Origin: Altererythrobacter sp. H2
Lineage (GTDB): Bacteria > Pseudomonadota > Alphaproteobacteria > Sphingomonadales > Sphingomonadaceae
Length of the DNA stretch: 64,000 nucleotides
Direction of reading: 5' to 3'
NCBI RefSeq assembly: GCF_035319885.1
Contig: NZ_CP141285.1
Coordinates: 992,001-1,056,000, forward strand
The notes under the pieces are model-generated. The model was not told the DNA's origin and did no database searches. It saw only the letters and a list, made by a program, of their open reading frames with translations. How positions within the stretch are numbered: position 1 is the first letter of the stretch; every line of letters starts with the position of its first letter. The translations under genes were made by a program, and so were the position numbers. Positions 34,967 through 39,660 of the stretch are shown piece by piece.

Positions 34967-35257
34967 CTAGTTGTTGTCGCCGCTCCCGCCATTGGCGTTT
35001 CCGGCCCGGGCGGTATTGCGTTTTCCCAGACGACCCGCGCCGTGATAGCCCGGCTGCGATTGCCCGCCGTGATCGAGAAAGCCGCCGCCAACGTTGGCCT
35101 GCTCGTCTTTGCTCTTGCCAGTGTGGGGATTGGGATAAGGCGCGGCGGCATCGCTGCCGCCGGTCGCCCCGTCTCTTCCCTGATTGTTCACCCCGTCGGG
35201 CGCACCCTTGCGGGCCGAGTTTCGGGGCACCGCCTGAGTGGGCTTACCCGACGTCAC
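34967..35257 (-). CDS. Small Gly/Asn-rich disordered protein coupled to hemerythrin gene
   Basis: 96 residues with a GTG start inside the GTGTGA end of the hemerythrin gene, giving two bases of overlap with its stop. The composition is rich in Gly, Asn, Ala, Lys and polar residues and nearly free of hydrophobic residues. Segments such as DAAAPYPNPHTGKSKDEQANVGG and YHGAGRLGKRNTARAGN look like a disordered stress protein. A terminator directly after it supports it as the last gene of the operon. No known family was identified. Confidence 0.6.
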   Translation of the reverse strand: MTSGKPTQAVPRNSARKGAPDGVNNQGRDGATGGSDAAAPYPNPHTGKSKDEQANVGGGFLDHGGQSQPGYHGAGRLGKRNTARAGNANGGSGDNN

Positions 35258-35832
35258 ACGCGATATCCGCCTGCTGCGGGCTCCATCCGCATGGTGGTTT
35301 CGCCATCGCCCATGTAGCGGGAATATTCCTGCTCGTACTGCTGCGTCAGGAAGGCCTTCCGCTCCCGCGGCAGGTTGTCGACCAGATCCGGCAGCCACTC
35401 GCTTTCCTCCTGGTAGACGTGCTGCTGCACCGCGCCTTCGATATGTTCGAGCTTCTCGCGCCATTCCTCGCTGCCGGGATCAAGCTGCTTGAGCTTGGCC
35501 AGCTGGATCTTGGTCATGGCGTGTTCCTCGTACGCCATGCCGGCGTGCGTCTTGCCGCTGAACTCGGCGACGTCAGGATAGAGGACTGCCTCTTCGGCGG
35601 TGGCGTGGCCGGTGAGGAGGGTCGACAGCTGCTCCACGGCGCGCACCGCGCCGGGGCCGGACGCCTGGCGTGCTTCGTTGAACGCGGCCTCGATCTGCTT
35701 GTGCTGATCAACCACCGCCCGGAGCCAGGGCTCGCCGGCGGCAAGGCGCTCGACATTCCGGCGTGCCTCGGCCCGCTGTTCGTCGGAGGCCGCAGGCGTC
35801 ACTGCGGCGGCAATACGGTCGAGAAAAGACAT
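35254..35832 (-). CDS. Hemerythrin-domain protein
   Basis: 192 residues. The iron-ligand pattern of hemerythrin-type HHE domains is visible: VVDQHKQIEAAF, LLTGHATAEEAVLYP, YEEHAMTKIQLAKLK and VQQHVYQEESEWLPDL. The first residues (FLDRIAAAVTPAASDEQRA) form an N-terminal helix. Such proteins sense or scavenge oxygen, NO or iron. AGGAG stands eight bases before the ATG. It is divergent from the bufferin operon. Confidence 0.88.
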   Translation of the reverse strand: MSFLDRIAAAVTPAASDEQRAEARRNVERLAAGEPWLRAVVDQHKQIEAAFNEARQASGPGAVRAVEQLSTLLTGHATAEEAVLYPDVAEFSGKTHAGMAYEEHAMTKIQLAKLKQLDPGSEEWREKLEHIEGAVQQHVYQEESEWLPDLVDNLPRERKAFLTQQYEQEYSRYMGDGETTMRMEPAAGGYRV

Positions 35833-35956
35833 GACATTCACTCCTGATGGTTTCTTGCCTGTTCAGAAGACAGGGCATGCCCTGGCGGATCAATGACCTG
35901 GGTTAGGAAGCTCATCCGTCAGGCCCGCAACGTCAGGCACTCAGCGAAAGCCGGAT

Positions 35957-35982
35957 GTAACCATCGGCCGCCAAAGCCCGAA
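35957..35982 (+). promoter_or_regulatory. SigF-type ECF promoter of the bufferin operon
   Basis: GTAACC (35957-35962) is followed after exactly 16 bases by CGAA (35979-35982). This equals the motif I recall for Caulobacter SigF-dependent genes. It lies 52 bases before the bufA ATG, giving a leader of about 45 bases. The operon itself encodes a SigF-like sigma factor and its membrane anti-sigma, so autoregulation is likely. Confidence 0.85.
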
Positions 35983-36033
35983 TAGGACCGTGTGAGCCGA
36001 TCAGGCCTACGCTGGACTTGAGAAGGACTGACC

Positions 36034-36330
36034 ATGAAATCGACTCTCGGAATCGCTGCCGCTTCGCTGGCATCGCTCGCCGCAGCCTCGCTGCTCGCTT
36101 CCTCGCCTGCCGTTGCGCAGGGTTCGGGTGCCAAGGAAAAGTGCTACGGCGTCTCGCTCAAAGGCAAGAACGATTGCGCGGCCGGGCCGGGCACAAGTTG
36201 CGCCGGAACTTCCACTGTCGACTACCAGGGCAATGCCTGGAAGTATGTCGATAAGGGTGCATGCGCCAAGATGGGCGGCTCGCTGACCGCCAAGGCCGGC
36301 AATGCCAAGCCGGTTCCCCAGAAGGGCTGA
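36034..36330 (+). CDS. bufA1: Bufferin-type peptide precursor (DUF2282)
   Basis: 98 residues. An N-terminal signal peptide ([21 protein letters not shown], cut near AVAQ) precedes a core with four cysteines in [23 protein letters not shown] and GACAKMGG, the DUF2282 pattern. Bufferins are RiPPs whose cysteines are modified by the partner MNIO enzyme and which bind copper in the periplasm. The DUF692 enzyme follows 35 bases later. Confidence 0.9.
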
Positions 36331-36364
36331 GGTCCTCGGGTCGCACCCCCGGATGCTGGCTGAC

Positions 36365-37270
36365 ATGAACGCCTCGCGGCCGTTACCCCCCGTGGCCGGA
36401 GTTGGCCTCAAACCTGCGCATTATGTGCAGGCGCTTGAAGCCGTGTCAGCCAGCATCCACCCCCCTGCCGGTCCGCCCGGCTGGTTCGAGGTTCATCCGC
36501 AGAACTATTTCGGGGCTGGCGGGCCGCCCCACCGCTGGCTTGCCGCCTTTGCCGATGCCGCGCCCCTCAGCTTCCACTCCGTCGGACTGTCTCTCGGCAG
36601 CCGGGACGGGGTGAACACGGCTGAGCTGGACCAACTCGCCACCCTGTGTGATCGCTATGCACCCGTCTTGGTGTCGGACCATCTGAGCTGGAGCGGCAGC
36701 GCCAGCAATCGTTATCCGGACCTTTTGCCGGTGCCCTACACCCGCGAGGTGCTTGATCATTTCGTGGTGCAGGTCGGCCGGGTGCAGGAGCGGCTGATGC
36801 GTCCCCTGCTGATCGAGAACCCTTCGCGCTATCTTGCCTTTGCCGGGGACGAGATGAGCGAAGCCGAGTTTCTCCATGCACTGTGCGCGCGCAGCGGCTG
36901 CGGCATACTGCTCGACCTCAACAATATCGAAGTGTCCGCCAGCAACCTCGGCCTCGACGCCGAGGCGATGGTCGATGCCATCGATCCGGCATGGGTGGGC
37001 GAGGTGCATCTGGCCGGCCATGCGCGCGAGGATCATGCTGGCGGTCCGATCCTGATCGACGATCATGGCTCCGCAGTAAGCGACGAAGCATGGCATCTGT
37101 TTGCCCGCTTCATCCACCGCGCCGGGCCGCGTCCGGTGCTGATCGAATGGGACACAGACGTGCCCACGTTCGAAGTGCTGCTGGCTGAAGCGGCCAAGGC
37201 CGATGGGATTTTGCAGCCCGAACGTCCGGTGCCGGAAACCTTCGGGAAGCAGGCCCGTGAGCTGGCTTGA
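36365..37270 (+). CDS. bufB: DUF692 MNIO enzyme, bufferin maturase
   Basis: 301 residues, a TIM-barrel multinuclear non-heme iron oxidase. Metal-ligand motifs are in GVGLKPAHY, WFEVHPQNYFG, LVSDHLSW, LIENPSRYL, LLDLNNIEVSASN, VGEVHLAGH and LIEWDTDVP. Such enzymes convert cysteines of the DUF2282 precursor to thiooxazole or related heterocycles. The start is uncertain: an in-frame ATG at 36353 exists. Its end overlaps bufC by 14 bases. Confidence 0.92.
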   Translation: MNASRPLPPVAGVGLKPAHYVQALEAVSASIHPPAGPPGWFEVHPQNYFGAGGPPHRWLAAFADAAPLSFHSVGLSLGSRDGVNTAELDQLATLCDRYAPVLVSDHLSWSGSASNRYPDLLPVPYTREVLDHFVVQVGRVQERLMRPLLIENPSRYLAFAGDEMSEAEFLHALCARSGCGILLDLNNIEVSASNLGLDAEAMVDAIDPAWVGEVHLAGHAREDHAGGPILIDDHGSAVSDEAWHLFARFIHRAGPRPVLIEWDTDVPTFEVLLAEAAKADGILQPERPVPETFGKQARELA

Positions 37271-38000
37271 GCGCGGGCAGGCTGCGATGATGGCGGCGCT
37301 GGACCATGGCCCCGCGCACCTTCCGCAAGGCCTGTTCGCCGGTTCGCCAGAACGGGTGCTTGCGGGCATGAAAGTCCATGCCAACACTATCTCCCACGCC
37401 CGACTGGTGGCACTGGAAGATACCTTTCCGCGCACCCGCGAGTTGATCGGGCATGAGCGGTTCAACGCGCAATCCCGGTTATTCCTCAAGCAGCCCGGTG
37501 TGACTGCTCTCGCCATGTCCGACATTGGACTGGGCTTTGATCGGTTTCTGGCCGCGCAGGGCGAAGGGCCGGGCCCATCGGACCTCGCGCGGTTCGAGTG
37601 GCTCTGGCTCGCCGCCTATCATGCTGCCAATGCCATGCCGCTGGACCTGGCCGCGCTGGCGGGCATCGCACCGGAAGTGCTGCTGGAGGTCGTGGTCCAA
37701 CGCCATCCCGCAGCCAGCGCGTCGCGGTTCGATCCCTCGGTGAATATTATGATTGGCAAGGAAGTGGCGGGGGCTGAGGAAGCGGCCGCGATCCTGATTG
37801 CCCGCCCGTTCGCAGACGTGCTGATCTCGCCCGCGACGGACGTGATGGCCGCAATGCTGCACGCTGCAGACAGGCCGAACACCATTGGTAACCTTCTTGC
37901 TCTGGCCGGCGAACACCGTGCTGACCATGGCGAAGTGGCTGAAGCCTCAAAGCAGGCGCTGGTCGCCTTGCTCGATGCTGGGGCGCTGACCCGCACCTGA
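37257..38000 (+). CDS. bufC: DUF2063 protein, bufferin partner
   Basis: 247 residues. The N-terminal DUF2063 domain begins [19 protein letters not shown] and has [35 protein letters not shown], as in the partner proteins of MNIO enzymes that bind and present the precursor peptide. The GTG start overlaps bufB. The C-terminal half forms a second helical domain. DNA binding has been suggested for the family name but is not supported here. Confidence 0.88.
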
Positions 38001-38032
38001 CGCCCAGTGTGGCTGCAAACAGGGAAAAGACC

Positions 38033-38491
38033 GTGAAAGCAATCCTGACGACCTATGACCGCGTGGTGGGCATGATCGACAACAACAAGGTCGAGAGCCT
38101 CGTGCTGCTGTTTACCCGGATCGTGTTTGCCGGGATATTCTGGCGCTCGGCCCGCACCAAGGTTGACGAGGGAGCCTGGCTGTCCATCAGTGACACGACC
38201 TATTTCCTGTTCCGTGAGGAATACGCCGGGGTGCCACTGCCGAGTGACCTTGCAGCCGTCCTGGCCACAGTGTCGGAACACCTGTTTCCGATCCTGCTGG
38301 TGCTGGGCCTGTTGACGCGGCTGTCGGCCCTGGCACTGCTCGCGATGACGATGGTGATCCAGTTGTTCGTCTATCCCGATGCCTGGTGGCAGGTGCATTC
38401 GCTGTGGGTGGCAATGGCGCTCGTGCTGCTGGTGCGGGGTGCGGGGGCAATCAGCCTTGACGCGCCGCTGGCAAGAGCGCGTGCGAAATGA
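38033..38491 (+). CDS. DoxX-family membrane protein
   Basis: 152 residues with four hydrophobic segments, including [22 protein letters not shown] and [28 protein letters not shown], as in DoxX. It follows bufC and overlaps the sigma-factor start by four bases. DoxX proteins are frequent in bufferin operons, where they may supply redox equivalents; function inferred. The GTG start with AGGG upstream is preferred to one eight codons earlier. Confidence 0.85.
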
Positions 38492-39012
38492 AAGCTGACG
38501 AGGCCTCGCTGGCCCGCCTGATGGCAATGTCGCAAGGCGGCAACAAGCAAGCCTATGCGACCTTGCTGACCGAATGCCAGCGCTGGCTGCGTGCCTATTA
38601 CAGCAGGCGGATCGCACCATCGCAGCTGGACGATCTGGTGCAGGACACCTTGATGGCCCTCCATCACAAGCTGGCCACCTGGGATTCCTCGCGCCCGTTC
38701 CTGCCCTGGCTGGCGGCCATCGCGCGCTATCGCTGGGTCGATCACCTGCGCCGGATCTACCGCGCTGACGAATGCGAGCTCGATGGCGAATTCGCCGGAC
38801 AGGATGATGAGCCTGCCATCGCGGCACGCATCAGCCTTGACTGGCTGCTCGGCCTCCTGCCCGATGCCCAGGCTCGGGCGATCGAATTGGTCAAGATCGA
38901 AGGACTGAGCGTTGCCGAAGCCTCGCAAGCGAGCGGGCAAAGCGAATCGCTGGTCAAAGTCAACATACACCGGGGCCTGAAGAAGCTGGCCCACCTGATC
39001 GAGAAAGCCTGA
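38488..39012 (+). CDS. sigF: SigF-like ECF sigma factor
   Basis: 174 residues. Region 2 is in [54 protein letters not shown] (about 40-95); region 4 is in [48 protein letters not shown]. Sigma factors of this kind direct RNA polymerase to GTAACC/CGAA promoters and respond to heavy metals in Caulobacter. Its coupling to the bufferin genes and to the downstream anti-sigma gene fits the SigF-NrsF module. Confidence 0.92.
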
Positions 39013-39015
39013 ACA

Positions 39016-39660
39016 ATGCCTCGTGATAGCAACACCCTGATCGCAGAGTTGGTCGGCAGCCTGGAACCGGTCAAGCCGCTCAGCTTCCGCCGGGGCTTTG
39101 CCCTTGCGCTGGCAGCGGCCGCGGTATCGGTGCTGGGAGTGGCCGCAATGTTCGATCTGCGCCCGGACCTGCTGTCCGGCCGCTTCGAGCCGGTTTTCCT
39201 GCTGGCGAGCGGGCTTTTCCTGGTGCTGGGTATTGCAGCCTCGGTTACGGTTATCGTGATGAGCCGGCCGCGCGTCGGCAGCGATCACGGCGGCTGGGCC
39301 TGGGCCGCAGCGATGGTCGCCCTGCTGCCGGTTGCGGCGACGCTGGTCACCTTCGGACGCGGCGGGAGCGTCCTGGGGCATGATGAGCTGCTCTACGGGG
39401 CCGAATGTCTCGCGCTCGGCTCCAGCTATAGCGTGCTGGTCTTCGCCGTGCTGGTCTGGTGGCTGCGCAAGGGTGCGCCCACCTCGCCCGAACGGGCCGG
39501 CCTGCTCACCGGCATTGCGGCCGGCTGCTTCGGAATTTTCGCCTTTTCGCTGCACTGCCGATATGATGACATCGTCCATATCGGTCTGTGGCACAGCGCC
39601 GTTGTGGTGGTTGCCGCTACGGCGGGCAGGGCCCTGGTTCCCCGGCTGGTACGCTGGTAA
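39016..39660 (+). CDS. nrsF: NrsF-type anti-sigma factor (DUF1109)
   Basis: 214 residues with six hydrophobic segments and a short N-terminal cytosolic part (PRDSNTLIAELVGSLEPVKPL). Two cysteines lie in periplasmic loops or adjacent segments (GAECLALG and LHCRYDD), as expected for the sensing cysteine pair of NrsF. The start is three bases after the sigma-factor stop. It is expected to hold SigF at the membrane until metal stress; inferred from family and position. Confidence 0.88.
   Translation: MPRDSNTLIAELVGSLEPVKPLSFRRGFALALAAAAVSVLGVAAMFDLRPDLLSGRFEPVFLLASGLFLVLGIAASVTVIVMSRPRVGSDHGGWAWAAAMVALLPVAATLVTFGRGGSVLGHDELLYGAECLALGSSYSVLVFAVLVWWLRKGAPTSPERAGLLTGIAAGCFGIFAFSLHCRYDDIVHIGLWHSAVVVVAATAGRALVPRLVRW

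Follow-up and report, generated by a model that had tools for sequence, protein, structure and literature searches.

Codon constraint points to a conserved intragenic SigF promoter in bufC of Sphingomonadales bufferin operons

A Buf1 operon with two SigF motifs

We analyzed a window of 64,000 nucleotides (nt) of Altererythrobacter sp. H2 (contig NZ_CP141285.1, positions 992,001 to 1,056,000), in which positions 35957 to 39660 hold the genes bufA1, bufB, bufC, doxX, sigF and nrsF, in that order and on the + strand. The locus is confirmed as a Buf1 (DUF2282) bufferin cluster with a SigF/NrsF pair of group ECF16, one of the groups of extracytoplasmic function (ECF) sigma factors. An exact SigF motif lies upstream of bufA1 (P1), and a second one, overlooked in the initial annotation, lies inside bufC at 37888-37913 (P2). 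We consider it very likely that the operon is served by two SigF-dependent promoters, with P1 transcribing the whole operon and P2 transcribing doxX-sigF-nrsF. The features are as follows.

35957..35984, +: P1, SigF (ECF16) promoter GTAACC-N16-CGAATA upstream of bufA1, exact Caulobacter crescentus SigF consensus (PMC3511200); predicted transcription start about 35992, at a pyrimidine-purine step at CGAA+10, as in other SigF promoters
36034..36330, +: bufA1, bufferin precursor, DUF2282 (Pfam PF10048), 98 amino acids
36353..37270, +: bufB, MNIO maturase (PF05114; NCBIfam MNIO_BufB)
37257..38000, +: bufC, DUF2063/RRE partner protein (PF09836; AlphaFold2 model)
37888..37913, +: P2, putative intragenic SigF promoter GTAACC-N16-CGAA in bufC, exact consensus, read as codons GGT AAC CTT ... 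GGC GAA; predicted transcription start about 37923
38033..38491, +: doxX, DoxX-family membrane protein (PF07681)
38488..39012, +: sigF, ECF sigma factor with Sigma70 regions 2 and 4, adjoining nrsF; both promoters match the ECF16 consensus
39016..39660, +: nrsF, membrane anti-sigma factor (PF06532) with Cys131 and Cys181

The gene content and order proposed in the initial annotation were borne out by Pfam searches, which identified DUF2282 (E 1.8e-24, over the PF10048 cut-off), MbnB_TglH_ChrH (MNIO, formerly DUF692; E 7.5e-90), DUF2063 (E 7e-10), DoxX (E 2e-15), ECF sigma regions 2 and 4 (PF04542/PF08281) and NrsF (E 1.3e-43). As had been claimed, the operon thus encodes a dedicated sigma factor, of group ECF16, together with the membrane anti-sigma. 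BufB also exceeded the NCBIfam MNIO_BufB cut-off (331 versus 310 bits), and its profile matched the solved MNIO structures 3bww, TglH and MbnB; the NCBIfam bufferin, HvfC, HvfX and NrsF equivalog models matched the other operon proteins below cut-off only, the weak HvfX-family match being that of DoxX. A sequence search of the PDB with BufC gave no match, and its AlphaFold2 model (predicted local distance difference test [pLDDT] score, 92.8) matched TglHI and NGO1945 (3dee) in a fold search (E ∼1e-5) and, weakly, PqqD-type RRE domains. The expected precursor features were likewise found: the BufA N terminus resembles a signal peptide, as judged by eye, and Cys37, Cys48, Cys56 and Cys77 are each kept in 109 of 109 relatives. 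In NrsF, Cys131 is kept in 131 of 133 relatives and Cys181 in 131 of 132. The host was correctly taken for a sphingomonad, the close named relatives of the locus being nearly all Sphingomonadales. Its genome is a single 3.24-Mb contig with one DUF2282 gene and one NrsF match.

Several gene starts were chosen among alternatives. The bufB frame opens at 36302, inside bufA, with the ATG at 36353 or 36365 a more probable start; the bufC frame opens at 37203, with GTG 37257 the likely start; and doxX probably starts at GTG 38033, preceded by AGGGA, the alternative being 38009. The genes are tightly packed: bufB and bufC overlap by 14 nt if GTG 37257 is the true bufC start, doxX and sigF share an ATGA, and sigF and nrsF are 3 nt apart. 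Within the operon, no terminators or attenuators exceeded the shuffle background. The earlier description of the genes as one tightly packed unit is nevertheless incomplete: the operon is probably more than a single transcription unit, since the conserved intragenic SigF motif predicts a nested doxX-sigF-nrsF transcript. The gene set in itself is ordinary. SigF/NrsF control of these genes has been published for Caulobacter (PMC3511200, PMC8224329), a homologous RpoE7 regulon has been mapped in Sinorhizobium meliloti (PMC6180224), and a survey of Buf1 clusters lists sigma and NrsF genes among their parts (PMC12452194).

The exact motif GTAACC-N16-CGAA occurs twice in the 64-kb window, both times in the operon, compared to 0.04 occurrences expected from shuffles, and P2 lies ∼120 nt upstream of the likely doxX start. 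Genome-wide, there were eight exact motifs versus four for the reversed pattern. The six outside the operon lie within or overlap long open frames. Three of them have a possible downstream gene (L080, L081 and L084), but on inspection none of these three is a convincing regulon member.

The motif in bufC is associated with the colinear architecture

Relatives were collected from genomes of the family, 80 named loci, order-level genomes and class-level genomes by NrsF or BufB similarity, never by motif, and architectures and motifs were called with profiles made from the window proteins. Three architectures emerged. In the colinear type, represented by 86 deduplicated loci, the genes run A-B-C-doxX-sigF-nrsF as in the window. 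In the split type, found in the same family, C-B-A' runs leftward and A-doxX-sigF-nrsF rightward, and in most loci the gap between them contains SigF motifs. In the class-level type, A-B-C-doxX is linked to sigF-nrsF in 8 of 40 loci, in divergent orientation, and otherwise has no adjacent sigF; all eight linked loci carry a SigF-type motif before bufA.

An exact motif was present in bufC of 71 of the 86 colinear loci, a set retrieved with queries from this family, so that its frequencies apply to Sphingomonadales. Three more loci had one mismatch and one had exact half-sites with a 17-nt spacer; the spacer was exactly 16 nt in 74 of these 75 loci, although its sequence is little conserved. On the + strand of the 86 loci, the 71 exact motifs in bufC (62 kb) compare to none in bufA, bufB, doxX, sigF and nrsF together (235 kb). 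No exact motif was found in bufC of the split loci (0 of 21), and not even a relaxed motif (GTAAC, 15- to 17-nt spacing, CGAA) in bufC of the class-level loci outside the family (0 of 40). Two loci carry the motif elsewhere in bufC, ∼223 nt before its end (exact in L072, one mismatch in L163), and again with an NGT AAC codon pair.

Evidence for selection on codons, not only on residues

Codon constraint was assessed on 65 bufC sequences less than 78% identical to one another. As these sequences are related, the resulting probabilities are guides rather than exact values, and the other columns of bufC and the other five genes are therefore the safer control. In the bufC frame, the motif reads NGT AAC CTN ... 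NNC GAA. When all codon columns of bufC were ranked by third-base constraint, the motif columns took ranks 1, 2, 4, 5 and 7 (log10 P of −31.1, −18.5, −15.5, −9.9 and −9.3, respectively). In the top column, the third base is T in 55 of 65 sequences, and the encoded residue is Gly in 48, Cys in 5, Ser in 4 and Arg in 3, with five others lacking the motif. The residue before Asn is always encoded by NGT in motif-bearing sequences, and Gly, Cys, Ser and Arg are exactly the residues that NGT can encode. Since the NGT codon is kept while the residue varies, it is the DNA rather than the protein that is conserved. Similarly, the codon before Glu, in the −10 element, ends in C in 54 of 55 sequences over 11 different residues, and Asn is missing wherever the motif is missing from bufC. 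When bufC was recoded at random with its protein preserved, only 0 to 2.7% of draws per locus had an exact motif within the final 84 codons; over 12 loci, 0.22 motifs were expected and 11 were observed. These codon patterns point to selection on the DNA at P2.

The codons of P2 map to the C-terminal part of BufC, which is RRE-like, in a predicted helix at residues 210 to 218 (block pLDDT, 82), so that the promoter would borrow coding space from a functional domain. The third-ranked column is an Ala (GCC) column near the bufC start. Several codon columns in the 5′ part of bufC (alignment columns 1 to 59) show unusual third-base constraint, which is possibly due to the bufB/bufC overlap or to translation start.

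Promoter geometry

The bufA promoters have, in nearly all sequences, a purine 10 nt past CGAA, usually after a pyrimidine. A purine at this distance also occurs at the internal site, in the majority of split-locus promoters, antisense as well as sense, and in stand-alone sigF promoters. The promoter strings of S. meliloti RpoE7 are printed as ending at the same distance (PMC6180224), and the lower-case last base in another row suggests that they end at the transcription start. This geometry gives the predicted starts near 35992 for P1 and 37923 for P2.

Comparison with known systems

In Caulobacter, SigF drives DUF2282-DUF692-DUF2063-DoxX operons via GTAACC-N16-CGAA promoters, and NrsF is the anti-sigma factor that sequesters SigF until metal stress releases it, its Cys131 and Cys181 being functional (PMC3511200). 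The C. crescentus/vibrioides locus CC3252-CC3257 (bufferin 1 operon, CC3254-CC3257) comprises the same six gene families as the window, with the same promoter consensus and even the same numbers for the NrsF cysteines. In both, there is a SigF-type promoter for the structural genes and one for sigF, with SigF dependence established in Caulobacter and predicted from the consensus in the window. The Caulobacter sigF promoter is similar to the SigF consensus (PMC3511200), but the arrangement differs: in Caulobacter, sigF-nrsF stands apart behind a promoter of its own, whereas in the window these two genes follow bufABC-doxX on the same strand and have their putative promoter inside bufC. In S. 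meliloti, the ECF16 factor RpoE7 switches on its own promoter as well as a divergent DUF692/DUF2063 operon (PMC6180224). The RpoE7-EcfR7 system resembles the window in placing such genes under an ECF16 sigma factor with GTAAC...CGAA promoters, there mapped, but differs in its divergent arrangement and intergenic sigma promoter. Reporter fusions in that study were not induced by H2O2, Cd or chromate (PMC6180224).

A 2025 survey of Buf1 clusters in Microb Genom lists the sigma and NrsF genes as members along with precursor, MNIO, DUF2063 and DoxX, as in the window; the accessible part of the survey covers gene content and order rather than promoters, and contains no intragenic promoter or codon constraint (PMC12452194). 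In the open-access literature, we found no earlier report of an intragenic ECF promoter in a bufferin setting. While the gene content is known, the intragenic promoter in bufC thus appears to be new, judged from that literature. For the gold-induced gig operon we know of no intragenic promoter. That operon, in Cupriavidus and Legionella, contains homologous genes responding to Au, Ag and Cu (PMC5413113, as cited in PMC8224329).

A model for P2 and its alternatives

We propose that NrsF would retain SigF at the inner membrane and free it when metal or thiol stress, with copper the likeliest signal, acts on NrsF, probably via Cys131 and Cys181. Freed SigF would fire P1 (35957), producing a transcript of the whole operon that covers bufABC and reads through into doxX-sigF-nrsF; its products would be the exported peptide BufA1, the MNIO/RRE modifying pair BufB-BufC, and DoxX. 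It would also fire P2 (37888), giving a shorter doxX-sigF-nrsF transcript. P2 would be the counterpart of the separate intergenic sigF promoter of Caulobacter and other alphaproteobacteria with a divergent gene arrangement, embedded in bufC where sigF-nrsF lie downstream of bufABC, with codons constrained to keep it. It may secure the supply of sigma and anti-sigma factors 2.5 kb downstream of P1, and we infer that this SigF-dependent initiation serves feedback, basal SigF/NrsF supply or both. More broadly, it appears likely that in Sphingomonadales with sigF-nrsF downstream of bufABC-doxX, an autoregulatory promoter has been set in bufC, that codon selection overrides amino acid choice in the BufC RRE, and that this dual-coding promoter wires a heavy-metal regulator across several families.

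Several observations weigh against this model. Nine loci of a Sphingomicrobium-centered clade (L164, L165, L181, L183-L188) have the colinear gene order and no internal promoter, so P2 is not indispensable. The base at CGAA+10 is a first codon position in bufC, which makes the purine there weaker evidence, and the −35 motif coincides with hydrophobic residues (CTN NTN), which may be favored for the sake of the protein too. In C. crescentus, sigF is not strongly autoregulated under Cr or Cd (PMC3511200), though it is Cu induced (PMC8224329); P2 bears on this question of SigF autoregulation, little under the former metals and clear under Cu. Finally, four loci of the Blastomonas/Sphingomonas ursincola type (L131, L132, L133 and L190) have both SigF promoters around bufABC-doxX and no adjacent sigF-nrsF, and P2 would therefore also serve doxX alone. 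Judged from these distributions, P2 is favored but not essential.

The last of these observations raises the question of whether P2 is used chiefly for doxX rather than for sigF-nrsF autoregulation, and C. crescentus doxX indeed belongs to the structural operon. In most relatives, however, doxX runs straight into sigF-nrsF, so that both would be transcribed, and three split loci (L053, L059 and L064) place an extra exact motif past most of doxX, directly before sigF. On balance we regard a predominant role for doxX as unlikely, though it is the strongest contender to the autoregulatory model.

Another alternative is that the natural signal here is Cr/Cd or oxidative stress instead of copper and that BufA1 is not a copper peptide. 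Cr and Cd were the first metals associated with SigF (PMC3511200), and related ECF16 systems have been tied to stress by oxidants or hypochlorite (PMC8315932). Against this, the same regulon in Caulobacter, sigF and nrsF themselves among the induced genes, responds most consistently to copper, and a mutant in sigF is copper sensitive (PMC8224329). In Caulobacter, Buf1 chelates copper through thiooxazoles formed from its Cys residues (PMC12452194), and all four bufferin cysteines are invariant among the relatives. A non-copper signal therefore seems to us rather improbable.

Still less credible is that the bufC motif is a by-product of a conserved G-N-L-L...E protein motif in the RRE domain, with a single transcript from P1. 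In its favor, these BufC proteins hardly vary at N, L and E, and the confident BufC model shows a helix at the motif residues. Yet the codon columns described above (NGT before Asn whichever of the four residues is encoded, and C before Glu across 11 residues), the loss of Asn together with the motif, the relocated motifs and the low yield of protein-preserving recoding all argue otherwise, as does a Leu mostly encoded by CTT, a codon uncommon here. On the codon-column constraint, we rejected a protein motif as the main cause of P2.

Very doubtful, to a similar degree, is a real DNA element with another role, such as an RNA element, a pause site of the SigF holoenzyme or a decoy site. The constraint, being seen at the DNA level, would be compatible with such a role. 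Against it, the element is an exact ECF16 promoter with a near-invariant spacer length and little conserved spacer sequence, oriented toward doxX-sigF-nrsF, and the P2 region matched no known RNA element in Rfam. Chance is ruled out by the shuffle expectation, the protein-preserving recoding and the 71-versus-0 distribution among genes.

Intragenic promoters in bacteria are often dismissed as noise. P2 offers a clean test case: its consensus is exact, selection is visible at its synonymous positions, nature provides cases of gain, loss and relocation, and the sigma/anti-sigma pair that follows it is known. If the model is true, the supply of SigF and NrsF would not be tied to the bufferin transcript, and codon changes or edits in bufC of these bacteria could silence the regulator.

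History of the two operon types

In a BufB tree built by a quick method, the 75 entries with the site spread across Erythrobacter/Porphyrobacter, Sphingobium, Novosphingobium, Sphingopyxis, Sphingorhabdus/Parasphingorhabdus and Blastomonas, while the split type forms one well-supported separate group. In the Sphingomicrobium-centered clade, 9 of 11 members lack the site and in the other two it is relocated. The site can therefore be lost or shift within bufC, and the operons lacking it provide a natural comparison for P2 function. The sole genome of the same genus with the operon (G034) holds the split type (L077), and the closest match of the window NrsF, at 63%, comes from another genus. Gene exchange or differential loss has thus probably shuffled the colinear and split types.

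Additional SigF motifs and neighboring genes

The extra exact motif of L053, L059 and L064, at or inside the doxX 3′ end and just before sigF, is apparently a second, separate case of an intragenic SigF promoter. Two loci have an exact motif between sigF and nrsF (L091:5520 and L136:8687), which suggests that nrsF there has its own promoter. Four have one downstream of nrsF (L107:8087, L112:6441, L041:2878 and L102:9637). In L107, L112 and L041, it lies 52 to 75 nt before a gene for a secreted thioredoxin-like protein (WCxTCKAQAP), followed by one for a CcdA/DsbD-like membrane protein, and both genes are candidate further SigF targets. One genome of the Blastomonas/S. ursincola type (G001) has no NrsF match anywhere.

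A set of loci of mostly split architecture (L043, L047-L048, L050-L056, L059-L061, L063-L064, L066-L068, L071, L077 and L089) encodes a back-to-back pair of different DUF2282 precursors, of which one adjoins bufBC and the other doxX-sigF-nrsF. No maturase is found next to the latter precursor, which could serve as a second substrate. In the window, a hemerythrin HHE-domain gene (35254-35841, − strand) is divergent from the operon, ∼115 nt from P1; its product weakly matches, below cut-off, the NCBIfam model for a PA2171-type ribosome-binding persister protein.

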